The position numbers were made by a program, and so were the translations under genes. A stretch of 34,948 nt of DNA from Acidobacteriota bacterium (lineage in GTDB: Bacteria > Acidobacteriota > Terriglobia > Terriglobales > Acidobacteriaceae). The DNA is taken from contig JAGWNX010000038.1 of NCBI GenBank assembly GCA_028872955.1, forward strand, positions 1 to 34,948, in the 5' to 3' direction. Under the pieces are notes generated by a model. The model did not search any database and was not told where the DNA came from. It was given only the letters and a program-made list of their open reading frames with translations. Below, in pieces: positions 24,025 to 34,948 of the stretch (within the stretch, counting starts at the first letter, position 1; every line of letters begins with the position of its first letter).

Positions 24025-25650
24025 ATGGACTCACAGAATCGCTTCACTTCGACCCTGCAATCACTCTTCCGCAGCAGTCGCTTCGCCTCCACCTTCGCCT
24101 TGCTGACCACACTCTCGGCCGGCATTCTGCTTGGCTCCGTGCTGACGCACAGCGTCGCCGGAAAAGAGAATGACAGCGCAGATGCCAAGCCGCTGTCAGT
24201 TCCCTCTCCCGTTACCCTCTCCAACGGCTTCTCCCAGATCGTCAAGCAGGTAGGCCCGGCGGTCGTCAACATCAACACGGAGTCGCTGCCGAAGGAGAGC
24301 AAGGTCAACCCGCATACTCGCCGTGGCCAGCAAAACCAGCCAGATCAAGGCGATATGCAGGATTTCTTCAACCGCTTCTTTGGCGGTCAGGGTGGTGATG
24401 GCGACGATGAGGATGGCGCGCCTGGCCAGGAGCGTCGCGCCCTGGGTTCGGGCTTCATCGTCGACCCCAACGGCTACATCATTACTAACAATCACGTGGT
24501 GGACAAGGCCGACAAGATCTATGTGAAGCTCTCCACGGATCCCGATGGAGGCCCCGGGGACTACGGTCGCCCGGCGCGAGTGATCGGTGTCGATAAGGAT
24601 ACGGATATCGCCGTCATCAAGATCGATACCAAGGAGCCATTGCCGACGGTGAAGCTGGGCAACTCCGACGGCGCTCAGGTCGGTGACTGGGTGCTGGCCA
24701 TCGGCAGCCCGTTCGGCCTGTCGCAGACCGTCTCGGCCGGCATTGTCTCGGCGAAGAACCGTTCGATTGACGAGCCGACGCCGAACGGCATCTCGCAGAG
24801 CCAGTTCCAGCGGTTTATCCAGACGGACGCAGCCATCAATCCCGGTAACTCGGGCGGCCCGCTGGTGGATATGGCCGGCCAGGTGATCGGCATGAACACG
24901 GCGATCTACACGCAGTCGATGGGCTCCGAGGGTGTGGGCTTTGCGATGCCCTCCAACATCATCGTGAACGTGTACAACATGCTGATTGGACCGGAGCACA
25001 AGGTGACGCGCGGCTCGATCGGCATCAGCTTCCAGTCTGGCATCAGCTCGGCGGTCGGCCGGATGTACGGCTTCTCGAACGGCGTGATTGTGAGCACGGT
25101 GACCCCGAACGGCGGTGCGGCGAAGGCCGGCATTCAGCCGGGCGACGTCATCGTCTCCGTAGATGGCCGGAAGATCAAGGATGGCGACGACCTGGTGGCG
25201 GATATCTCGTCCCGCAAGGTAGGTTCCTCGGTCAACCTCGGCTTCCTGCGCAACGGCAAGCAGCAGTCGGCAACCGTAACCATCGGCGACCGGGCCAAGA
25301 CGTACGCTGAGATCACCGGGAACGATGGCGACGACAGCGCCAGCGCGGATGACTCCGATGCAGGCCAGAATACCCTGGGCATCTCCGTTGCTCCGGTGCC
25401 GGCAGCGACGCAGAAGAAGCTGGGTATCTCCGGCGGTGTGGTGATCACCAATGTGCGGGCGGGCTCGTTTGCGGACGAGATCAACCTAGGCAAGGGCATG
25501 ATCATCACCGAGATCAACAAGCAGCCGATCACGGACGAGGCCAGCTATCGGGCGATCGTCAAGGGCCTGAAGTCGAAGGGTGATGTGGTGTTTGTGGTGC
25601 GGGATCCGCGTGCCGCAGGCAATAACTACATCGGAGGAACACTCCCCTAG
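24025..25650 (+). CDS. Periplasmic serine endoprotease, DegP/HtrA type (two PDZ domains)
   Basis: This protein of about 541 residues degrades or holds misfolded envelope proteins. An N-terminal hydrophobic segment (about 22-42) acts as a signal or anchor. The trypsin-like domain has its triad at His157 (ITNNHVVDKADK), Asp194 (DKDTDIAVIKID) and Ser276 (NPGNSGGPLVDMAG). Two PDZ domains follow: one with GGAAKAGIQPGDVIVSVDGRKIKDGDDLV, and a C-terminal one around ITNVRAGSFADEINLGKGMIITEINKQPI. A Gln/Asp/Gly-rich loop (about 100-140) precedes the first catalytic strand, like the LA loop of DegP. I chose the ATG at 24025 (AGAGG 13 nt upstream, rather long). An ATG at 23998 is possible but has no ribosome-binding site. 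A hairpin and palindromes follow the stop. Confidence 0.92.
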   Translation: MDSQNRFTSTLQSLFRSSRFASTFALLTTLSAGILLGSVLTHSVAGKENDSADAKPLSVPSPVTLSNGFSQIVKQVGPAVVNINTESLPKESKVNPHTRRGQQNQPDQGDMQDFFNRFFGGQGGDGDDEDGAPGQERRALGSGFIVDPNGYIITNNHVVDKADKIYVKLSTDPDGGPGDYGRPARVIGVDKDTDIAVIKIDTKEPLPTVKLGNSDGAQVGDWVLAIGSPFGLSQTVSAGIVSAKNRSIDEPTPNGISQSQFQRFIQTDAAINPGNSGGPLVDMAGQVIGMNTAIYTQSMGSEGVGFAMPSNIIVNVYNMLIGPEHKVTRGSIGISFQSGISSAVGRMYGFSNGVIVSTVTPNGGAAKAGIQPGDVIVSVDGRKIKDGDDLVADISSRKVGSSVNLGFLRNGKQQSATVTIGDRAKTYAEITGNDGDDSASADDSDAGQNTLGISVAPVPAATQKKLGISGGVVITNVRAGSFADEINLGKGMIITEINKQPITDEASYRAIVKGLKSKGDVVFVVRDPRAAGNNYIGGTLP

Positions 25651-25654
25651 TCAA

Positions 25655-25667
25655 GAGGTTAAACCTC
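25655..25667. repeat. Short palindrome after the degP-like stop
   Basis: GAGGTT and AACCTC are separated by a single A, five bases after the stop codon. It may be the first part of a compound end-of-transcript structure with the larger hairpin downstream. Confidence 0.3.
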
Positions 25668-25674
25668 ATGATGC

Positions 25675-25733
25675 AAGCGGCGCGCGAGGTGAGAGCACAG
25701 GTTGGTTCCGGACTCTGGCCTCGCGCGTTGCTT
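25675..25733 (+). terminator. Long imperfect hairpin after the degP-like gene
   Basis: AAGC and CGCGCGAGG (25675-25689, with a 2-base mismatch) pair with CCTCGCGCG and GCTT (25719-25733). A loop of about 29 nt separates the arms. Only a short T stretch lies at the end. Position and stability suggest a terminator or a 3' mRNA-protecting structure. Confidence 0.5.
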
Positions 25734-25822
25734 TAGTTGAAGCCACCCTCTGAGTGTGTCAAACCAGGAACCCGAGCTGGAAAAGACATGGCATGGGCGG
25801 AGTTGTATTGCACTGGCCAGAC

Positions 25823-25872
25823 CATATCGATATGCTATGGACGGTATTAGAAGTTTGATTGCCTGAACTTCT
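25823..25872. promoter_or_regulatory. Two palindromes upstream of the peptidoglycan-binding gene
   Basis: CATATCGATATG (25823-25834) is a perfect 12-bp palindrome. AGAAGTT (25849-25855) and AACTTCT (25866-25872) form a perfect inverted repeat with a 10-nt spacer. They lie 30-80 nt before the start codon in an otherwise gene-free spacer and are candidate regulator sites. Confidence 0.35.
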
Positions 25873-25901
25873 GACTTACTCCCCGAGGTACTTGCTGTAT
25901 T

Positions 25902-26303
25902 ATGCACACGCGCAAAACCGTTCTCGCACTCACCCTGCTGCTGATGGCTGGCCCCGCGTTTGGGCTTACCCATGTGCGCCGGGGCCCAACCTCCCCGCAC
26001 TACTCGTCTCGCAAGAGCAAATCAGTTTCCCATCGTCTCTCTGGCCAGGCCGGAATTGATCCGGCCCGCGCCACTGAGATTCAGAGCGCGCTGATCAAGT
26101 CGGGCTACCTGACCGGGCAGCCCTCTGGCGTGTGGGACGCGCAGACACAGGCCGCCATGCAAAAGCTGCAGGCAGATAACGGCTGGCAGACCAAGCTGGT
26201 GCCGGACTCCCGCGCCATCATCAAGCTGGGTCTTGGCCCTGGCACCGCCACCGAGCAAAGCTCCGTTACGCCTGACGTCATCCCGACGACGGCCTCGAAT
26301 TAG
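25902..26303 (+). CDS. Small exported peptidoglycan-binding protein
   Basis: The 133-residue protein has a signal peptide (MHTRKTVLALTLLLMAGPAFG|LTH). A basic, Ser-rich linker (about 24-48) precedes a PG_binding_1-type domain (about 52-105). Its pattern is visible in IQSALIKSGYLTGQPSGVWDAQTQAAMQKLQADNGW. The tail is Thr/Pro-rich and unstructured. The domain presumably tethers the protein to cell-wall glycan in the periplasm; no catalytic domain is attached. The ATG at 25902 has only a distant GAGG (13 nt away). It is convergent with the flagellar operon's last gene. Confidence 0.82.
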   Translation: MHTRKTVLALTLLLMAGPAFGLTHVRRGPTSPHYSSRKSKSVSHRLSGQAGIDPARATEIQSALIKSGYLTGQPSGVWDAQTQAAMQKLQADNGWQTKLVPDSRAIIKLGLGPGTATEQSSVTPDVIPTTASN

Positions 26304-26366
26304 TCCCACGCTCCCGTAGTCTTCCCGCTGACAACTTTCGCGTACACCGAAGCCCGGGCTGTGCTG

Positions 26367-26406
26367 CGCCTGCGGTAGAGCACTGCTGTGCGCTTTGCCG
26401 CAGGCG
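26367..26406. terminator. Hairpin between convergent genes, possible bidirectional terminator
   Basis: CGCCTGCGG (26367-26375) and CCGCAGGCG (26398-26406) form a perfect 9-bp stem, with an inner GCAC/GTGC pairing in the loop. It lies 14 nt past the end of the last flagellar-operon gene (minus) and 63 nt past the peptidoglycan-binding gene (plus). No T-run is present on either side. Confidence 0.5.
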
Positions 26407-26420
26407 AGCCACCCCGCACG

Positions 26421-27419
26421 CTACGCCTGGCCACCCAACGTGAACAGATAGTCCTGCATATCTTCGTGGGTTCCGGGCAGGTCGCCAGCGGTGCCGCGGG
26501 TGCCACTCTCCAGCCACAGCCGCAGCCAGAAGTACTGGTGCATGCGGACCAGTCTTGACGCGAGAGGCTGGCGATCCTCCAGCAGCGCGGAGACACGGGC
26601 CGTCAACGCATCCAGATCTGCCGCAGCGGCCACCTCGCACGGAATGTTGTTGGCGGCGGCGAGAGCCTCGCGAGCAGCCTGAAAGGCTTTGCTTTCAACC
26701 AGTCCAGTCTCAGTCTTCAAGCCCGACATGCGCTCTGCGGCAAATGCAACCGAAGGGCTGGGGCGATCTTCGCAGCCCAGGTACAACATATTGCCGACGG
26801 CGCGAAGCGGCACCATGCCGAACTCCTGAACCGCAGGCTCTGGCAGCACCAGGGCCATGGCCTGCGCGTCAAAGCCATCGGTCGAGAAGACCGGGCAGCC
26901 CCACTGTACGCTCAGCCCGCGCGTGACCTGCTCGGTGTCGAGCCCGCAGGCGTTCACCAGCCAGTCTCCGATGCGGCCGGTACCGGCGGTGCGCTGCTGG
27001 TTGAGCGCCTGCTGCAGCTGGGGATTCGTGATCCAGCCCTGAGCCAGCATAACCAGTCCCAGCGGAACACGGTGCCGATGAGGCTGCGGTGCGGACGCGT
27101 TGCGACGTTCGCCTCCGTGCTCGCGGCGCACGGCTGCTCGCACGATGGACTGCAGGCACCGACCGCTGCACCCCCACTGGGACTCGAAGACCGGGCGACG
27201 GCGACTCCGCCAAGGGACGCTCCAGCTGCTGCTGCACTCCGGGTTGCCACAGACATACTTCTGCCGGGCGCTGCTCTGCTCCTGCAGGTTGCCCAGGTGG
27301 AGACCTGCGTCGCCGGGTTCATACACGTCGGTGGTGTCCTGGTTGAGATGCAGCTCGGTGCCCAGCCCAAGGCCGGCGACCTGTTGCTGCCTATTGCCAA
27401 ATCGTCCTAAGAAAGGCAT
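26421..27419 (-). CDS. Zinc-ribbon + standalone MshEN/T2SSE_N-like protein in the flagellar operon
   Basis: This 332-residue soluble protein has no signal peptide. Residues 57-88 hold a Cys4 motif, CGNPEC (57-62) and CSGRC (84-88), around an Arg-rich PWRSRRRPVFE segment, resembling a zinc ribbon. Residues 119-142 (PLGLVMLAQGWITNPQLQQA then LNQQ) and 149-172 (RIGDWLVNACGLDTEQVTRG then LSVQ) are two copies of the 24-residue MshEN pattern. That pattern forms the N-terminal domain of GspE/PilB/MshE ATPases and binds c-di-GMP in several of them. The region to about 240 (LVLPEPAVQEFGMVPLRAVGNMLYLGCED) continues like T2SSE_N, but no Walker ATPase follows. The C-terminus (270-332) is unrecognised. 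The ATG at 27417-27419 lies inside fliN (13-nt overlap, different frame) with GGAG 10 nt upstream. A c-di-GMP role is inference. Confidence 0.8.
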   Translation of the reverse strand: MPFLGRFGNRQQQVAGLGLGTELHLNQDTTDVYEPGDAGLHLGNLQEQSSARQKYVCGNPECSSSWSVPWRSRRRPVFESQWGCSGRCLQSIVRAAVRREHGGERRNASAPQPHRHRVPLGLVMLAQGWITNPQLQQALNQQRTAGTGRIGDWLVNACGLDTEQVTRGLSVQWGCPVFSTDGFDAQAMALVLPEPAVQEFGMVPLRAVGNMLYLGCEDRPSPSVAFAAERMSGLKTETGLVESKAFQAAREALAAANNIPCEVAAAADLDALTARVSALLEDRQPLASRLVRMHQYFWLRLWLESGTRGTAGDLPGTHEDMQDYLFTLGGQA

Positions 27420-27727
27420 CGTATGCTCTCCAATCGCATTTGCGGTGTTGCTACTTCCGTGATGCGCAGTGCGAAGTTGCCGCTCACCACGACGACTTCA
27501 CCACGCGCCACAATACGGTCGCCGACGACAAGATCCACCGGCTCCGAGACGTGACGATCCAGCTCGATAACATCTCCGGGGCCAAGCTCCAGCACTTCGC
27601 GCAGGGGCATCTCTCGCGCGCCAAACTGAAGGGTGGCGTCCAGCTCAATGTCACAAAGCAGACCCAGCGGATTCTCCTCTACCGTTGTCTGGGCCGGCTG
27701 GGCAGACAACACCTCTGCGTTCTCCAT
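27407..27727 (-). CDS. fliN: Flagellar motor switch protein FliN
   Basis: This 106-residue protein is made mostly of one SpoA (FliMN_C) domain (about 25-98). Characteristic segments are LDATLQFGAREMPLREVLELGPGDVIEL and VDLVVGDRIVARGEVVVVSGNFALRI. FliN forms the lower ring of the C-ring with FliM and helps dock the export ATPase. The length is within the usual range. The ATG at 27725-27727 has AAGGAGA 9 nt upstream. It follows fliM by 57 nt and overlaps the start of the zinc-ribbon/MshEN gene by 13 nt, which suggests translational coupling. Confidence 0.94.
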   Translation of the reverse strand: MENAEVLSAQPAQTTVEENPLGLLCDIELDATLQFGAREMPLREVLELGPGDVIELDRHVSEPVDLVVGDRIVARGEVVVVSGNFALRITEVATPQMRLESIRCLS

Positions 27728-27775
27728 CCTGGTGCGTCTCCTTGCTCTTTCGGGCTCTGCCCGGGGTTGGGTCGA

Positions 27776-27783
27776 GGGGGGGG
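27776..27783. repeat. Homopolymer tract (8 x G on plus strand) after fliM
   Basis: An uninterrupted run of eight G (C on the mRNA-sense strand) lies one base beyond the fliM stop codon, in the 57-nt fliM-fliN spacer. Such tracts are slippage-prone. Here it is outside any reading frame. Confidence 0.6.
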
Positions 27784-27784
27784 A

Positions 27785-28735
27785 TTACTGCGCGCGAGGG
27801 GCCGCCTCAAGCTGAGCGCCGCGATGCTCTCCTGAGCGGACGGCGTGGGCGCGGTCGAAGAGGAGTCCACCGACGCGGAGTTCCGCGGTGCTGTTTCGAG
27901 GCAGCGGAAGTCGCAACAACGCGCCTTCCTCCAGCGCAGCCAGCTCGCGCGCGCCAAGCTTCATCACCGGGAACTGCAACACCGTCGCGACGTTGGCCTG
28001 ACCGAGCAGCTCACGCATGCGCGCCCGCGCCTCAGCAGACCGGCGCCGTGGGCGATCGCCCTCTTTCACCAGCTTGCGCAGAATGGCATTGAGCACCGAG
28101 GCCGGCAGGCACAGGTTCAGCACGCCCTGAGCCTCCGGCATGCGTACCTCCCAGCAGACGCTGAGCGTCTTCTCCCCCAGGTTCATCACGCGCGAGAGCT
28201 GCCCCTCATTCTCACGTTTGGCATAGGTCAGCTCCAGCCCCACGGCTCTCCAGGCAAGACTGAGTTCCTGCAGCAGCATCTTGACCACGGTGTGGAGAAT
28301 CTCCTCTTCGATCTCGGTCATCTCGCGGACCTCACGGACGCGACCGACGCCGCCAAGCAGAACATCAACTATGGGGAACGCAAGACTGAGTTCCATCTCC
28401 AGCACACCCAGCGCGTCGAAGGGCTCCAGATTGACCGAGCACACGTAGGTTGGCTTCCCCAGTCGACTGACAAACTCGGCAAACGGAAGCTGCTCACCAG
28501 CCACCAGGTTGACCTGGAACTGGGTGCGCAGCCAGGCACCGAGGGTGTGCATGAGATTACGCGCAAAGACGTCGTTCAACGTGCTGATGGCGCGCATCTC
28601 GTCCGGGCTGATCTGGCCGGCATGACTGTAGTTGAATCGATAAGCACCAGCACCATCGATGGCTTCGCCACTTGTCTGCTCCGTCGTTGCAGCAAACAGT
28701 GCGTCGATGTCCTTCTGTCCCAGAATCCGTTCCAT
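27785..28735 (-). CDS. fliM: Flagellar motor switch protein FliM
   Basis: This 316-residue C-ring protein couples chemotaxis signals to rotor direction. The N-terminal ILGQKDIDALFAA matches the CheY-P-binding peptide (LSQ-x-EIDALL type). The middle domain (about 45-230) includes the family segment FNYSHAGQISPDEMRAISTLNDVFARNL (here preceded by YR) and LLGGVGRV. A C-terminal SpoA domain follows (VLQFPVMKLGARELAALEEGALLRLPLP). The ATG at 28733-28735 has AGAGGGA about 4 nt upstream. Beyond the SpoA domain the tail is a little Ala/Arg-rich. It lies 53 nt after the sigma factor gene and 57 nt before fliN. Confidence 0.96.
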   Translation of the reverse strand: MERILGQKDIDALFAATTEQTSGEAIDGAGAYRFNYSHAGQISPDEMRAISTLNDVFARNLMHTLGAWLRTQFQVNLVAGEQLPFAEFVSRLGKPTYVCSVNLEPFDALGVLEMELSLAFPIVDVLLGGVGRVREVREMTEIEEEILHTVVKMLLQELSLAWRAVGLELTYAKRENEGQLSRVMNLGEKTLSVCWEVRMPEAQGVLNLCLPASVLNAILRKLVKEGDRPRRRSAEARARMRELLGQANVATVLQFPVMKLGARELAALEEGALLRLPLPRNSTAELRVGGLLFDRAHAVRSGEHRGAQLEAAPRAQ

Positions 28736-28788
28736 GCTTCCCTCTCTCTTGTGTGATACGTCTGCGTGGGTATGCTGCGCGGCTTGGG

Positions 28789-29691
28789 CTAGGGGCGCGC
28801 GGTTCGTGACTTCGACTGGGGTTGCGGACTGCGACCACGCAGGTCAGCAAAGGCGGCACGCAGACGCAGCACAGCCGAAGAGTGAATCTGCGAGACACGC
28901 GATTCGACGACGCCCAGAGTCTTGCCGATCTCTTTCATGGTCAGCTCCTCGTAGTAATAGAGCGTGAGCACGAGTCGCTCCTTTTCCGGCAGAGCGTCGA
29001 TGGCATCAATCAGCCGCTGGCGCATCTCGCCCTGCAGGCACCGGAAGAGAGGATCCTCTTCCGGCGAGCCGGGAATGTACGCGAGCTCCTCATCGCCAGA
29101 GTCTTCGGAGCGCTCCATGTGCAGACTGCCGATCTCGAGGCCCTTCAATTCGCCCAGCAGCAGCTGATACTCCTCAAGCGAGAGTCCCATCGCTGCAGCG
29201 ATCTCCTGCTCCAGAGGCGCTCGGCCGAGGCTCTGCGTCAAACTGCGAATCGCGTCCTCCGCTGCGCGTCCCTTGCGGCGCAGCTCACGCGGGCTCCAGT
29301 CCAACGTGCGCAGCGAATCCAGAATTGCGCCGCGGATGCGGAACTGTGCGTAGCTCTTGAACTGCACATTCTTCTGGTGATCGAACTTGGCAAAGGCATC
29401 GATAAGCCCGACGACACCGGCCGATACCAGGTCGTCAAACTCCACGTGCTGCGGCAGCCGCTCGTGAATACGTCGCGCGACGTAGCGCACGGTGGGCAGA
29501 TGCTCTAACAACAGGCGGTCGCGCTCCGAGGCTGCGCCATCCAACACTGAGGCCGAGTTACCTGCTGTTTGCTGCCAGGACTCTGCAGCAGCGGCGGATG
29601 CCTGCTGAAACTTGTTGGCAGGTGGCAGCAGATGCACTGCTGCTGCCGGATCCCGCTTCACGCTCTTGGCCAAGGATTGCTCTCTTTGCAT
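28789..29691 (-). CDS. fliA: Flagellar sigma factor, FliA/WhiG (sigma-28) family
   Basis: This 300-residue sigma factor directs RNA polymerase to late flagellar and chemotaxis promoters. Region 2 is visible in VRYVARRIHERLPQHVEFDDLVSAGVVGLIDAFAKFD and FKSYAQFRIRGAILDSLRTLDWSPRELR. Region 3 follows (about 130-185), and region 4 is in LPEKERLVLTLYYYEELTMKEIGKTLGVVESRVSQIHSSAVLRLR. It is longer than E. coli FliA (239) mainly through an N-terminal extension of about 55 residues (Ala/Gln-rich). The ATG at 29689-29691 has GGAG 5 nt upstream. The gene lies inside the operon between flhA and fliM, so its expression is tied to early gate genes. Confidence 0.94.
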   Translation of the reverse strand: MQREQSLAKSVKRDPAAAVHLLPPANKFQQASAAAAESWQQTAGNSASVLDGAASERDRLLLEHLPTVRYVARRIHERLPQHVEFDDLVSAGVVGLIDAFAKFDHQKNVQFKSYAQFRIRGAILDSLRTLDWSPRELRRKGRAAEDAIRSLTQSLGRAPLEQEIAAAMGLSLEEYQLLLGELKGLEIGSLHMERSEDSGDEELAYIPGSPEEDPLFRCLQGEMRQRLIDAIDALPEKERLVLTLYYYEELTMKEIGKTLGVVESRVSQIHSSAVLRLRAAFADLRGRSPQPQSKSRTARP

Positions 29692-29747
29692 GCTCTCTCC
29701 GTCTCCCTTTCTGCTCTACCGGGTTCGACCACTGATGTTCGCCCCGA

Positions 29748-31856
29748 CTATCCAACCGTGCCGAGGCTTCGCACCCGCACCTCAGGTGGAATCTCCACCG
29801 GTGCCAGCACCGTGACCTTTGGCATAAATGGCTCAAGCCATCTCCGCAGGTGATAACGGGCTGGACTTGGGCAAATGAGCACGGGAAGTGCCGCGGAGGT
29901 GGCATCTCCGGTTAGGCGCTTCACAGAATCCACGAGGCGACGTAGATACTCTGTGGTGGAGGCCTGCCTGCGGGTGCCGTCGCCCAGCATCAGGTCTGCA
30001 CTCTTGGGGTCAAAGGTGCTGACCAGCTCTGTCTCCAGACCGGGCTCCAGCATCAACACGCGCAGCCCACCCTCGGCGTCCAGCAAGGGATGGATGAGAC
30101 CACGGCCAAGTGCCTGGCGCACGCTCTCAACCAGATGCACCACGCTCTTGGAGTGTGGCGCGGCCTCCACGAGCACCTCGAGGATTGCACCGAGATCGCG
30201 GATGGAGACCTGCTCGCGTAGCAGTTGCTGCAGCACGCGCTGCACCTCACCCAGCGTCATCAGCTTGGGCACCAGTTCCTCAACAAGCTTGGGATGCGAA
30301 TCGTTCAGGCTATCCAGCAGGCGCTTCACCTCATGCCTGTTGAGCAACTCATGTGCATGCCGACGGATCAACTCGCCCAGGTGCGTGCCGATCACCGTCG
30401 TCTGATCGACCACGGAGTATCCGGCGGCGAGCGCAGCCTCCTGCAGCCCGGGTTGAATCCAGCGCGCATTCACGCCAAAGGCCGGTTCGCGCGTCTCCGT
30501 GCCTGCAATCGGCCTGGCCTTGGGATCTGCGTTGACCGCCAGCAGACAGTTCTGCTCGGTGCTCCAACGCGCAATCTCGACTCCGCGCAGGCTCACAACA
30601 TACTCACGCGGTCGCAGGCGAAGATTGTCGGTGATGTGGACGGCAGGCACAATAAAGCCGAGGTCCGTGGCCAGGTGACGGCGCAGCGCACGCACTCGAT
30701 TCAGCATCTGTCCGCCCTGCTTCTCATCGACCAGTGGAATCAACTGGAAGCCGATCTCCAGAGTCAGCTCATCCATCTTCAGGAGTGAGGCCAGGTTCTC
30801 GCTCTTCGCTGCGTCCTCGGTGCCCGCAGCCGTGGCTGTCTTGCCGACGACGAGTTCATCCGTCTGGGTTCCCTCGTCTGCAGTCGCTGGAAGCCGCCTG
30901 GCCAGCAGAGCCATGCCCGCAGCAAGCAGCAGGAAGGAGAACTTAGGCAGGCCCGGCACCAGCGCCAACGCCACCAGGACGCCACAGGCGATCCAGAGCG
31001 TGGTGCGGCGCTGCAACAGCTGTGAGCCAAGTTCACTGTTCAGAGTGCCGGCCGAGGAAGCACGCGTGAGCACCATGCCGCCGGCCACTGAGACCAGAAG
31101 ACTCGGGATCATCGTCACCAGGCCATCGCCGACCGTAAGCACGGTATAAGTCTTCAGAGCTGTGGCCACATCGGTTCCCTGCTGGATGACTCCGATCAGC
31201 AGACCGGCGACGATGTTGATAGCCGTGATGAGGATGGTTGCCAACGCATCGCGCTGGTTGAACTTCGCCGCGCCATCCATCGCGCCATAGAACTCTGCTT
31301 CACGGGCGATCGTCTGACGTCGAATGCGTGCGCCCTGCTCATCGATCAAGCCGGCGTTCATATCCGCATCAATGGCCATCTGTTTGCCCGGAAGCGCGTC
31401 GAGGGTGAAGCGCGCTGTGACCTCGGCCGTGCGCACTGCTCCATGACTTACGACGAGGAACTGAATGGCAATGAGCGCCAAAAAGAGGACAAAGCCCACG
31501 ATGTAGTTGCCGCCCACGACAAACTGCCCGAAGGCCTCAATCACGGAACCGGCCGCGTGTGTCCCCTCATTGCCATGCAACAGGATTCTGCGGCTGGAAG
31601 CCAGATTCAGCGAGAGTCGGAAGAGCGTGAGCAGCAACAGCAACGTTGGAAAGACCGAGAAGTCGACGGCCTTGCGCACCTGGACTGCAGTAAGGAAGAC
31701 CACCACAGATGCCGTGATGGATGCGGCCAGCAGCAGATCCAGCAGGATAGCCGGCACGGGGATGAGCATGACAAAGATGACTGCGATGGCACCGATAGGA
31801 ACGACTAGCGGTCGCAACTTATCCAATCGCATCTTGCTCGGGTTGGTCTGACTCAC
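29748..31856 (-). CDS. flhA: Flagellar export gate protein FlhA
   Basis: This 702-residue inner-membrane export gate component drives proton-coupled secretion of flagellar subunits. About eight membrane helices occupy the first 330 residues. The FHIPEP signatures include FSVFPTLLLLLTLFRLSLNLASSRRILLHG, RTAEVTARFTLDALPGKQMAIDADMNAGLI and the charged loop RIRRQTIAREAEFYGAMDGAAKFNQRD. The cytoplasmic C-terminal domain (about 350-700) contains NLRLRPREYVVSLRG and GYSVVDQTTVIGTHLGELIRRHAHELLNRHE. The start is a GTG (31854-31856) overlapping the flhB stop by 4 nt; a strong GGAGGT lies 5-6 nt upstream and supports it. The neighbours confirm a flagellar and not a virulence type III system. Confidence 0.96.
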   Translation of the reverse strand: MSQTNPSKMRLDKLRPLVVPIGAIAVIFVMLIPVPAILLDLLLAASITASVVVFLTAVQVRKAVDFSVFPTLLLLLTLFRLSLNLASSRRILLHGNEGTHAAGSVIEAFGQFVVGGNYIVGFVLFLALIAIQFLVVSHGAVRTAEVTARFTLDALPGKQMAIDADMNAGLIDEQGARIRRQTIAREAEFYGAMDGAAKFNQRDALATILITAINIVAGLLIGVIQQGTDVATALKTYTVLTVGDGLVTMIPSLLVSVAGGMVLTRASSAGTLNSELGSQLLQRRTTLWIACGVLVALALVPGLPKFSFLLLAAGMALLARRLPATADEGTQTDELVVGKTATAAGTEDAAKSENLASLLKMDELTLEIGFQLIPLVDEKQGGQMLNRVRALRRHLATDLGFIVPAVHITDNLRLRPREYVVSLRGVEIARWSTEQNCLLAVNADPKARPIAGTETREPAFGVNARWIQPGLQEAALAAGYSVVDQTTVIGTHLGELIRRHAHELLNRHEVKRLLDSLNDSHPKLVEELVPKLMTLGEVQRVLQQLLREQVSIRDLGAILEVLVEAAPHSKSVVHLVESVRQALGRGLIHPLLDAEGGLRVLMLEPGLETELVSTFDPKSADLMLGDGTRRQASTTEYLRRLVDSVKRLTGDATSAALPVLICPSPARYHLRRWLEPFMPKVTVLAPVEIPPEVRVRSLGTVG

Positions 31857-33001
31857 ATTCCACCTCCAATAATCTGTGTTGTCCGCAGGCTTGGAAAGTA
31901 CGGCTGCCTGATCTCTTGTTCCCGCTGGTGCTGCCTCTCGCGCTCGCGACGCATCTTCTCTTCCACGTGCTGCCGGAAGAGGTAGGCCAGAATGCCCGCA
32001 ACTGCGGCGTACAACTCAAAGGGAATTGCCTGCCCAGGGGCGACCGCCTTGAACAGGCTGCGTGCGAGCGGAGGGTTCTCCACCATCGGAATTCCCAGCC
32101 AACGGGCCTCCTCACGAATCTCCGCCGCATGCAGGTCGCGGCCCTTAGCAAGGACCACGGGAGCAGACATCGTCTCGAAGCTGAACTCCAGGGCAACGGC
32201 GTAGTGCGTTGGGTTGGTGATGACGACGGTAGCGCGACTCAGGTCTGCTTTGACCTTGCGCTTGCGAATGGCAATCTGGACCTGTCGAATCCTTGCCTTC
32301 ACCTGGGGATTTCCGAGCGCTTCACGAATCTCTTCGCGCAGCTCATGCTTGCTCATCTTCAGCCGTTCGTTCCAGCTTCGCCACTCCATCAGATAGTCCA
32401 CGGCAGACCACGCCAGCGTGAGCCAGGCAGCATCCAGCGCGAGTGTGTATGCCGTGCTGAAGGTCTGCGTCAGTCGAGTGAGTTGTATCGCCTGCACCGG
32501 CGCAGTCATGCGGCGCAACGCGGCATACCCGAGCATTGCGACGACCGCCGCCGGCAACAAGGACTTGAGCAACCGCACGGCAGCACGCAGGCTGAATAGC
32601 TGTCCAAAGTTCGAGACAGGGTTAAACTTTTCGGGTTTGAATGCCAGGGCCTCTGGATTGAGCTGAACGCCACCACCCTGAGCAATGCCCGTTAACAAGG
32701 CGGCGCAGAAGCTAGCTGTCATGACCGATAGAAGCGGCAGAGCCAACCGAACCAGCAAGGCGCGCAGCGCAGTCACCCAGGCCGTATTGCCTGCCAGCTC
32801 CTGCAGTGTGGCTGAACGAATGCAGATGGCGTAGAACTCACCCCACTGACGCAAGAACTGCGGTGTCGCATAGCCAAGCATCAACAGGCCTGCCAGCATG
32901 CCCATGGCAGAGAGCAGGTCGCGGCTGCGCACACTGTCTCCACGCTCGCGTGCCTTGCGCTTGCGCTGCGGTGTCGCTTGCTCTGTTCCCTTCTCGCTCA
33001 C
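31853..33001 (-). CDS. flhB: Flagellar export switch protein FlhB
   Basis: This 382-residue gate protein switches export specificity from rod/hook to filament by self-cleavage. Four membrane segments lie in residues about 30-210. The autocleavage motif NPTH (263-266, within TVVITNPTHYAVALEF) is intact. The N-terminal MSEKGTEQATPQRKRKARERGD is typical of the family. The C-terminal tail (about 350-382) is charged and ends in GGGM. The start is a GTG at 32999-33001 with AAGGA 6 nt upstream. It lies 9 nt after fliR and overlaps flhA by 4 nt. FlhB is about the normal length. Confidence 0.95.
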   Translation of the reverse strand: MSEKGTEQATPQRKRKARERGDSVRSRDLLSAMGMLAGLLMLGYATPQFLRQWGEFYAICIRSATLQELAGNTAWVTALRALLVRLALPLLSVMTASFCAALLTGIAQGGGVQLNPEALAFKPEKFNPVSNFGQLFSLRAAVRLLKSLLPAAVVAMLGYAALRRMTAPVQAIQLTRLTQTFSTAYTLALDAAWLTLAWSAVDYLMEWRSWNERLKMSKHELREEIREALGNPQVKARIRQVQIAIRKRKVKADLSRATVVITNPTHYAVALEFSFETMSAPVVLAKGRDLHAAEIREEARWLGIPMVENPPLARSLFKAVAPGQAIPFELYAAVAGILAYLFRQHVEEKMRRERERQHQREQEIRQPYFPSLRTTQIIGGGM

Positions 33002-33010
33002 TCGTTGTCC

Positions 33011-33793
33011 TTACCCACGCGCCAGCAGACCAGCGGCATGGTCCAACAGCAGGTTGAAGTGGCGCTCTACCCAGCCCGGCCACACAGCCAGACTCGCGAT
33101 CAGCACCAGATAGGAGACCATGGTCTTGAGCGGTACGCTGACAAACAGGACCGGCAGCTGCGGTGAAAGTCTGCCGATGAGGGACACCGTCACCTCTACC
33201 GTGAGTGCTGCCGCCAGCACCGGTGCTGCCAGTTGCAATCCAGAGAGAAAGATGTCCCCCGCCATCTGCACCAGGCGGTGCGCTGAGGTTGCAAGCAGAA
33301 CAGCACTGCCCACGGGCACTGCGGCGAAGCTTCGAACCACAGCCATCAGCAGCGTGCGATGCAACCCCGCGCTGAGGATGAGCAACATCGTCATCCAGTT
33401 CAGCAACTCAGAGAGCACGGGAGAGTCCACACGCGAGTTTGGATCCAACAGGTTGACCAGCGAGAAGCTGAACTCCATCCCAAGCAACGAGCCGGCGAAG
33501 TTGACCGCCTCCGAAAGCATGGCGAGGCTGAGGGCAAACGTGAGACCAACCGCCAACTCACCAAGGATCGCTGAGAGATCGAGCGAATGCCGCGCTCCGG
33601 GCAGAACAGCAGCCGCCGGAGCCACCAGCAATGACACAGCAAACACGAAGACGGCCTTCACCCGAGGAGAGATCGCTGCGGAGGAGTAGAACGGAGCAAA
33701 CGCAACCAGGGCGCTGAGCCGAAGCATGACCAGCACCATGGCTGTCGCATAAGACGACCAGTTCGTGACCAGATTGCTTACAGTCTGCGGCAT
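33011..33793 (-). CDS. fliR: Flagellar export gate protein FliR
   Basis: This 260-residue membrane protein with about six helices joins FliP and FliQ in the export gate core. Family features include MLRLSALVAFAPFYSSAAISPRVKAVFVFAVSLLV near the N-terminus and LGMEFSFSLVNLLDPNS in the middle. The C-terminal half has APVLAAALTVEVTVSLIGRLSPQLPVLFVSVPLKTMVSYLVL. The ATG at 33791-33793 starts 5 nt after the fliQ stop; the ORF extends into fliQ in another frame and is not used. The ribosome-binding site is weak (CGGAT), as expected for a coupled gene. Confidence 0.94.
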   Translation of the reverse strand: MPQTVSNLVTNWSSYATAMVLVMLRLSALVAFAPFYSSAAISPRVKAVFVFAVSLLVAPAAAVLPGARHSLDLSAILGELAVGLTFALSLAMLSEAVNFAGSLLGMEFSFSLVNLLDPNSRVDSPVLSELLNWMTMLLILSAGLHRTLLMAVVRSFAAVPVGSAVLLATSAHRLVQMAGDIFLSGLQLAAPVLAAALTVEVTVSLIGRLSPQLPVLFVSVPLKTMVSYLVLIASLAVWPGWVERHFNLLLDHAAGLLARG

Positions 33794-33798
33794 GCACG

Positions 33799-34080
33799 TT
33801 ATCCGAAGTAGCGGTGCAGATTTGTGAAGAGATGCAGGGTATAGAGCACCAGGCGGTGCACGCTCCACGGCAACACCAGCACCGCCACCGTGAAGACCAC
33901 GATCAGGCGTGGCACTGAGGTAAGCGTCTGCTCCTGGATACCCGTGAGAGTTTGCACCAGACTGACGAGGACGCTCACCAGGCCGGCTGCAATTAGCAGC
34001 GGCGCACTCAGCAACATGGCCTCCAGCAGCATGCGACAGATTAATTCAACAGTCTGGTCTGGTCCCACCGGACGCTCCAC
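33799..34080 (-). CDS. fliQ: Flagellar export gate protein FliQ
   Basis: This 93-residue protein has two membrane helices (about 17-42 and 55-80) linked by the conserved LVQTLTGIQEQTLTSVPRLIVV region. It packs around the FliP-FliR core of the export gate. It starts at GTG 34078-34080, sharing one base with the fliP stop codon (TAG/GTG). An AAGAG lies about 6 nt upstream. The length is normal for FliQ (about 90). Confidence 0.94.
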   Translation of the reverse strand: MERPVGPDQTVELICRMLLEAMLLSAPLLIAAGLVSVLVSLVQTLTGIQEQTLTSVPRLIVVFTVAVLVLPWSVHRLVLYTLHLFTNLHRYFG

Positions 34081-34928
34081 TAAAAACTCTTGATCAATTG
34101 ATTTGCCAATAGATTCCAGCCGTCCACCATGACAAACAGAAGTATCTTGAGGGGCGTAGACAGAACGACCGGTGGCAGTTGCATCATGCCAATTGAGGTC
34201 GTCACGCTGGCAACGACAAGATCAATTAGCAGGAACGGAAGAAAGAGGATGGCACCAATCTGGAAGCCCGCTTTCAGCTCACTGAGCATGTAGGCAGGCA
34301 CGACCACCGCCATCGGCAGATCCATCGCGGTGCGCGGCCGCTGCTGCATACCGGCTGAAGCGAACACGGCAAGATCCTTCTCTCGGGCGTAACGCAACAG
34401 GTATTGCTTGACTGGCACGGAACCACGATCCAGGGCGTCGAGTCCGCTGATCTGGCCTGCCTGGTAGGGCACCACGGCCTGCTGCTCCACCTGCTGCAGC
34501 ACAGGCTGCATCAGGAACCAAGTCATCATCAGGCCTAGTCCCATCAGGACCTGGTTGGATGGAGCCGTTTGCGTGCCCAGCGCCTGCCGCAAGAAGTGGA
34601 AGACAACCAGCAGGCGCACGAGGGGCGTCATGGCGAGCAACAGCGCAGGCAACAACGTTAGCAGCGTAAGGCCAAAGACAATCGACCAGGGGGTGCTCTG
34701 GCTCTGATCTAACTCCTGCTGGATACTCGTGCCTTTGTTCGACGGGGTTGAATGCAGGTCAGTCGCTGCAGCAAGGCCGAGCTGTGACGACGATCGCTTA
34801 GCTGCACCATGCGCACCCACCCAGTAGGATTGCGAACTTCTTGCGGTGGCGTCCGCTGCCTGGGCAGAGGGTGAGAAGAGCAGCGGCAGCCCGATGAGGA
34901 GGAATAAAGCAGCGAACGTTATCCTCAT
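34080..34928 (-). CDS. fliP: Flagellar export gate protein FliP
   Basis: This 282-residue protein has a cleavable signal peptide (MRITFAALFLLIGLPLLFSPSAQA|AD), then a Ser/Gln-rich periplasmic stretch of about 50 residues that is longer than in E. coli FliP (245 in total). The export-gate domain follows: IVFGLTLLTLLPALLLAMTPLVRLLVVFHFLRQALGTQTAPSNQVLMGLGLMMTWFLM, DLPMAVVVPAYMLSELKAGFQIGAILFLPFLLIDLVVASVTTSIGMMQLPPVVLSTPLKILLFVMVDGW. The ATG at 34926-34928 has GAG about 8-10 nt upstream; a GTG 6 nt earlier is possible. It is the first gene of the operon visible here. FliO, if present, would be beyond the window edge. Confidence 0.95.
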   Translation of the reverse strand: MRITFAALFLLIGLPLLFSPSAQAADATARSSQSYWVGAHGAAKRSSSQLGLAAATDLHSTPSNKGTSIQQELDQSQSTPWSIVFGLTLLTLLPALLLAMTPLVRLLVVFHFLRQALGTQTAPSNQVLMGLGLMMTWFLMQPVLQQVEQQAVVPYQAGQISGLDALDRGSVPVKQYLLRYAREKDLAVFASAGMQQRPRTAMDLPMAVVVPAYMLSELKAGFQIGAILFLPFLLIDLVVASVTTSIGMMQLPPVVLSTPLKILLFVMVDGWNLLANQLIKSF

Positions 34929-34948
34929 ACACACGTCTCATCTTGTGT

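Follow-up and report, generated by a model that had tools for sequence, protein, structure and literature searches.

A Cys4-MshEN protein at the fliN end of acidobacterial flagellar gene clusters: a candidate link between c-di-GMP and swimming

Background

A number of bacterial proteins are known through which c-di-GMP acts on pili or flagella, and those closest to the protein considered here are the MshEN domains (PF05157; NF053729) of the ATPases MshE, PilB and PilF. In the structure of MshE the ligand is contacted by Arg1, Leu2, Gly3, Leu17, Leu21 and Gln24 of the repeats (PMC5013675). The same paper gives a relaxed motif that admits Pro at the Arg1 position, relates from an earlier study that changes of Arg9, Asp12 and Gln32 cost at most about fivefold, and lists eight changes in XpsE, an MshEN domain that has lost c-di-GMP binding. 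Arg9 and Gln32 of MshE have also been called pivotal (PMC12943098), and on the weight of Arg9 the two papers differ in tone. At the flagellum, YcgR is a PilZ effector of the motor (PMC12713396), the Cle proteins are CheY-like effectors of the switch with a c-di-GMP-binding C-terminal extension (PMC5677366), and SwrB of B. subtilis activates flagellar export, its loss being mimicked by defects of the C-ring (PMC4526659).

The protein described here is encoded in the window, by which is meant the whole 34,948-nt stretch of acidobacterial DNA that was analysed. It shares with MshE, PilB and PilF the tandem 24-residue repeats and an MshEN_C part, and its relatives of the types found in the families f29 and f25 can be aligned to the start of N2. 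It differs from them in having a Cys4 segment ahead of the domain and no ATPase behind it, the N2 domain and Walker ATPase that follow N1 in PilB and GspE being missing, and in that the family of the window has Pro for Arg1 of motif I and a shifted loop in motif II. The likeness to YcgR is a proposed one, with c-di-GMP as the input and the basal body as the output, but the window protein has no PilZ domain (no Pfam match at E<=1), its domain is unrelated and its gene position is tied to fliN. The likeness to Cle, as a c-di-GMP effector at the switch, is likewise only proposed, a domain of MshEN type with a Cys4 segment standing in place of the CheY-like architecture. SwrB is not a homolog; it resembles a neighbour that the Cys4-MshEN gene has elsewhere in the phylum, and the step from C-ring to export is one that they might have in common. 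The glycosyltransferase NfrB (NF008411) is another protein with an MshEN domain that is not an ATPase, and its model matches residues 113-237 at E=7.3e-10, far below its own cut-off; we know of no flagellar link for NfrB.

Acidobacteriota are common in soil and, as far as we know, their switch between swimming and surface life has been little studied, so that a gene which is conserved among them, stands between those for the switch and the rod, and has a candidate c-di-GMP site offers one clear target. A literature search, mostly of papers outside subscription and excluding preprints, found no paper on such a protein among titles and the opening lines of abstracts.

The gene and its neighbourhood

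The features of the window to which the text refers are as follows.

26421..27419, minus strand: Cys4 + MshEN flagellar-cluster protein, 332 aa, ATG start, last gene of the flagellar gene run
27407..27419, minus strand: overlap of 13 nt between the ATG of the Cys4-MshEN gene and the end of fliN
27428..27431, minus strand: GGAG, Shine-Dalgarno-like, 8 nt 5' of the Cys4-MshEN ATG (by eye)
27156..27251, minus strand: Cys4 segment, residues 57-88, C-x4-C-x21-C-x3-C
26994..27065, minus strand: MshEN motif I, residues 119-142, Pro at position 1
26904..26975, minus strand: MshEN motif II, residues 149-172, Arg1 retained, Cys10, Gly11
26667..26903, minus strand: MshEN_C-like region, residues 173-251
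26424..26663, minus strand: C-terminal tail, residues 253-332
27407..27727, minus strand: fliN (FliMN_C, Pfam E=7e-25)
27785..28735, minus strand: fliM (FliM, Pfam E=3e-37)
28789..29691, minus strand: FliA/WhiG sigma factor gene (NCBIfam match)
29748..31856, minus strand: flhA (Pfam)
31853..33001, minus strand: flhB (Pfam)
33011..33868, minus strand: fliR (Pfam)
34080..34934, minus strand: fliP (Pfam)

The earlier note on this DNA, made from the letters alone, had described a gene at 26421..27419 beside flagellar switch genes, with cysteines at residues 57, 62, 84 and 88 and 24-residue repeats at 119-142 and 149-172. The gene is present as described and these positions are right, as are the reservations made about the Pro at Arg1 of motif I, the Cys at position 10 of motif II and the spacer of 6. 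Beyond those reservations, position 11 of motif II is Gly in the window protein, which means that the glycine of the loop has moved by one position. The genes upstream of it, all on the same strand, are in order fliN, fliM, the sigma gene, flhA, flhB, fliR and fliP. A scan of 25650-29800 found no site resembling a promoter; of sites resembling a terminator it found two, each on the plus strand, which is no more than in shuffled sequence. This speaks neither for nor against one transcript, and that the Cys4-MshEN gene is transcribed together with fliN and the upstream genes is inferred from gene spacing.

Identity and ancestry of the domain

The NCBIfam model NF053729, for the MshE-related c-di-GMP domain, matches residues 119-172 over profile positions 1-53 with E=4.5e-9 and 36.0 bits, narrowly under its curated cut-off of 38 bits. 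A phmmer search of PDB sequences gave matches within residues 113-251 to PilF (1.6e-16), PilB (3e-9) and MshE (2.2e-5). Pfam, PF05157 included, gave no match to the window protein at E<=1, and among eight relatives PF05157 matched the four of f29 type at 49-57 bits, over its cut-off of 23.1 bits, and the other four below it at 17-21 bits. No ATPase domain follows the MshEN part, since the protein ends at residue 332 and no T2SSE match was found in it or in the relatives scanned. The claim of an MshEN-type protein without an ATPase has thus held up on the NF053729 match, the PilF, PilB and MshE matches and the absence of T2SSE. A chance repeat is excluded by the E-value of the NF053729 match, by the PDB matches and by conservation in relatives, and a misread secretion ATPase by the length of the protein and the missing T2SSE match. 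The genome of the window has a PilB of its own (L001 1423-3048), which is the only PF05157 match there. It begins beyond the point where the tandem MshEN motif would lie, and this pilus ATPase therefore seems to be without the c-di-GMP part.

Three alignments were compared with 20 PilB ATPases of the phylum: A1, of the window type, built from 48 of the best 120 of 863 proteins; A3, of the f29 type, from 26 of the best 120 of 229 proteins; and A4, from 10 loci. A1 and A3 align with each other over 240 columns (hhalign probability 98.65). Against the PilBs, the matches of A3 and A4 extend past N1 into the beginning of N2, ending at column 275 (probability 99.4) and column 282 (99.5) of 629, whereas A1 covers N1 only, to column 195 (98.3). 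With the PilB of the window's own genome, A3 can be aligned as far as RASDIHLE in N2, though with less confidence (88). In a FastTree phylogeny of the MshEN region, the 79 members and the 20 PilBs fell into two groups split with support 1.0, and the 63 members from the window's family were grouped at 0.989. On the profile alignments and this split, the gene is one old lineage apart from PilB, consisting by sequence of a PilB/GspE-type front end with a Cys4 segment and with the motor absent; the tree excludes an ordinary PilB paralog.

Distribution and gene order within the family

The survey of the genus covered 60 genomes with the same genus label, including that of the window, and 49 of them gave a match to the gene, one of which (G030) has only a C-terminal remnant and is counted as being without it. 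A further locus, L022, is on a contig equal in length to G020:C10, in all likelihood the same record, and does not enter the counts. At all 47 of the other same-genus loci the gene follows FliN directly on the same strand, and in 45 of these 47 relatives there is an in-frame start codon with an identical 13-nt overlap of fliN. The gene also adjoins FliN at 15/15 loci from other genera of the family, making 62/62 in all. FliM is present in the same locus in 55 of the 62, once as a fragment; it was not found at the other seven (L050, L051, L055, L064, L098, L110 and L111), where FliN still adjoins the gene. At L050, L051, L055 and L064 the main operon is without FliM, and a divergent fliM and a divergent fliN occur elsewhere in the same genomes (L073, L074, L075 and L078). 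At 43/47 same-genus and 15/15 other-genera loci the cluster has the sigma gene upstream as well.

Among the 60 genomes the gene is present in 47 of the 50 with FliM and in one of the 10 without (Fisher p=1.4e-7, uncorrected for kinship), and in other genera of the family, among the matches listed, in 15/16 with FliM and 0/7 without (p=3e-5, likewise uncorrected for kinship). The three FliM-positive genomes that are without the gene (G019, G026 and G030) have only a second, more divergent type of flagellum, and no match for the gene was found at loci of this second type (L071, L072, L076 and L077). Three further genomes (G003, G006 and G036) carry the second FliM type beside the first, and at L071 an HDOD-like gene was seen by eye to follow fliN. 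The sole FliM-negative genome with the gene, G044, has a decayed operon (L045, G044:C7) in which the start of flhB abuts the end of fliM; flhA and the sigma gene were not found there, and fliN and the Cys4-MshEN gene have been kept. In G030 an ORF that by eye resembles a sigma54 activator continues in frame into the sequence for the C-terminal tail of the flagellar protein (L070, G030:C5, 5963-7303, plus strand), and this fusion has the look of a scar left by a deletion in which the flagellar operon of this type was lost. In the window's family the gene is strictly linked to the fliN end of flagellar clusters.

Relatives in other families of the phylum

The phylum was searched as a set of 396 genomes, with the family profile (window type) and then with profile A3 (f29 type). 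Among the matches listed, the family profile found distant matches extending over the Cys4 part, in family f29 and once in f25, and A3 added f8 and f38. The loci read in other families numbered 25, and this reading covers a part of the 66 genomes outside the family that have a FliM match over the cut-off. Ten of them (L093-L096 and L112-L117) were chosen for a known match, 14 (L119-L132) for FliM alone, with no whole-length match to A1 or A3, and one, L118, because its genome had a partial match on another contig; L118 ends before the place of the gene. The gene is present at 16 of the 25 (six in f29, four in f25, two in f8 and one each in f38, f47, f34 and f59), six of them among the 14 FliM-chosen loci, and it was not found in the other eight of those clusters (L119-L124, L129 and L132). 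Flagellar clusters with a whole-length homolog are therefore known from seven families besides the window's own, eight in all, and every whole-length match that was read lies in a flagellar cluster, a partial match at a contig end (G260:C196) being left out. A third protein search gave 120 listed proteins, of which the three with an organism name were all acidobacterial (Acidobacteria bacterium, Vicinamibacterales); the distribution searches were directed at the phylum Acidobacteriota.

The usual order elsewhere in the phylum is sigma - fliM - fliN - (HDOD gene) - small TM/coiled-coil gene - Cys4-MshEN gene - flgF - flgG, with parts not found at some loci. The small TM/coiled-coil gene gives a weak match to DUF6115/DUF2802 and is in that sense SwrB-like. 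We take DUF6115 to be the family of SwrB, and B. subtilis was one of two control genomes positive for it. In other families this gene stands directly before the Cys4-MshEN gene, which it overlaps at L093 and L095. An example is L093 2555-2974, and it is also seen in f29 clusters where the Cys4-MshEN gene was not found (L121-L124). In the window's own genome the DUF6115 model gave no match, and a SwrB-like neighbour was not found by that model.

The flagellar linkage claimed in the earlier note is borne out, both beside fliN in the window's family and in the flagellar clusters of other families; that note would have been refuted by homologs that are never linked to motility genes, and the survey of acidobacterial loci gave the opposite. 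The homologs across genomes of the genus and of the phylum also exclude an oddity of one genome. The gene is a part of some flagella and not of every one, as the second type within the same group and the eight FliM-chosen clusters show. What is new about this known domain is its architecture and its setting, and eight families of the phylum have it in that form.

The candidate c-di-GMP site

The residues that contact c-di-GMP in MshE (Leu2, Gly3, Leu17, Leu21 and Gln24 of both repeats, and Arg1) are mostly retained, with the exception, in the window's family, of Arg1 of motif I. None of the 79 members departs from Gly3 in either repeat or from Gln24 in repeat II, and Gln24 of repeat I is present in 77/79, the two others (L099 and L100) also being without Leu21 of motif I. 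Arg1 of motif I is Pro in 63/63 members from the window's family, and Arg or Lys in 13/16 from other families. The 11 contact positions have a mean entropy of 0.41 bits, compared with 1.93 for 126 other positions of the domain, and 0 of 20,000 random draws were as low, the entropies being taken over positions with at most 10% gaps (79 members) or at most 20% (PilB comparison). Ligand-contact positions are therefore mostly conserved, Arg1 of motif I excepted. However, the 20 PilBs of the phylum gave a similar contrast (0.42 compared with 1.15), so conservation alone cannot separate ligand binding from upkeep of the fold.

The relaxed motif is passed twice by none of the 79 members; it is passed at least once by 43/48 of the window's group, 10/15 from other genera and 8/16 from other families. 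Of the 20 phylum PilBs, six pass it twice, 11 once and three not at all. As regards the residues of MshE called pivotal, the Gln is retained in the window protein and Arg9 is replaced. Of the eight changes listed for XpsE, which does not bind, the window protein shows not one, as mapped by eye: G121, L139, R149, G151, L169 and Q172 are the MshE residue, and W129 and V165 are hydrophobic. The genome of the window has 11 GGDEF matches and so probably makes c-di-GMP. It also has two PilZ matches: the first ORF is of 893 aa, and the second, with a single domain, adjoins an apparent response-regulator gene (by eye).

Possible role

The relatives in flagellar clusters of several families of the phylum make this gene a good candidate for a link between a bacterial second messenger and swimming. 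The reading that we prefer, with a probability of a little under one half (about 0.48), is that the Cys4-MshEN protein may be a cytoplasmic, c-di-GMP-sensing accessory protein of the flagellar basal body, acting as a soluble adaptor. Its body is, by sequence, the N1 (MshEN) part of a PilB/GspE-type ATPase, in the remote relatives with the start of N2 as well, with the Cys4 segment ahead of it. c-di-GMP would sit between the two 24-residue repeats as it does in MshE, and its binding would alter how the domain is oriented towards the Cys4 segment and the tail. These in turn would contact the C-ring on its FliN side or, where there is one, the SwrB-like protein, so that high c-di-GMP would gate the maturation or output of the basal body. 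The C-ring and the transition from it to export are suggested by where the gene stands in the run, by its overlap with fliN and, elsewhere in the phylum, by the SwrB-like neighbour. A role in assembly of the C-ring and export apparatus suits the adjoining genes of other families (FliN, the SwrB-like gene and the rod genes) at least as well as that of a brake, and a checkpoint on this assembly is ranked above a motor brake because elsewhere the gene sits between C-ring genes, with the SwrB-like gene, and rod genes. It may instead affect the motor in the manner of YcgR (PMC12713396) or the switch in the manner of Cle (PMC5677366).

An important consideration is whether the fold still binds a ligand at all, as it could have been retained only as a module for protein-protein contacts or oligomerisation within a structural scaffold of the basal body. 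The loss of Arg1 of motif I throughout the family, the altered loop of motif II and the want of any member with two relaxed motifs are all consistent with this, and XpsE is a precedent for an MshEN domain that ceased to bind (PMC5013675). Such a scaffold is nonetheless rather unlikely when set against the absence of all eight XpsE changes from the window protein, the invariance of Gly3 in both repeats and of Gln24 in repeat II, and the small cost that the same paper relates for changes of Arg9, Asp12 and Gln32.

The remaining explanations place the protein away from the basal body. It is improbable that it serves as a c-di-GMP-responsive checkpoint on flagellar gene expression, its Cys4 segment binding the FliA/WhiG sigma factor, another regulator or nucleic acid. 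Zinc fingers are frequent binders of nucleic acid or protein, and the sigma gene is upstream in the same cluster at nearly all loci of the family, but no model of a DNA-binding domain gave a credible match, and the gene stays behind fliN even at the 7/62 loci from which fliM has gone, which points to structure rather than to regulators. It is more improbable still that the protein is a decoy of the type IV pilus machine, a mimic of the PilB front end that competes for the partners of PilB or for c-di-GMP and so ties the pilus to flagellar expression. The kinship with the N-terminus of PilB is clear, but the gene travels with flagellar genes, its MshEN region stands apart in the tree from PilBs of the same phylum, and the one PilB of its own genome is without the tandem motif.

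If the preferred reading of a c-di-GMP-sensing basal-body protein is true, a sensor of the pilus motor has been reused for the flagellum. We would go further only tentatively, and with more doubt than for that reading: where other flagella have PilZ (YcgR) or CheY-like (Cle) effectors of c-di-GMP, Acidobacteriota might possess one of a third structural class, a motorless front end of a pilus motor with a zinc finger that would gate export or rotor output together with the C-ring and the SwrB-like protein, and that would have belonged to the phylum's flagellar cluster from early on.

Cys4 segment, tail and N-terminus

All four cysteines are retained in 48/48 members of the window's group and 16/16 from other families; in other genera of the window's family the first is present in 12/15 and each of the other three in 15/15. 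No Pfam zinc-finger model matched the window protein or eight relatives, two of which (P0232 and P0216) are cut at the N-terminus. The segment is a candidate zinc-finger-like element with a putative zinc site, presumably treble-clef or TRASH-like as judged by eye. In the tail W298, L299, R300 and W302 are invariant in 48/48 of the group, and in the remote relatives the corresponding part can be aligned with the beginning of N2 of PilB. Asp218 of the window protein aligns with the Asp of 'ADP' in PilB (phmmer alignment) and is probably the equivalent of MshE Asp108; the position is Asp in 39/48 of the group and mostly Ala (12/16) in other families, a change that speaks against ligand binding. 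Residues 1-36 are variable apart from a conserved MPFL at the start and a D-x-Y near 31-33 (D31 in 41/48 and Y33 in 40/48 of the group), two stretches that might form a docking peptide.
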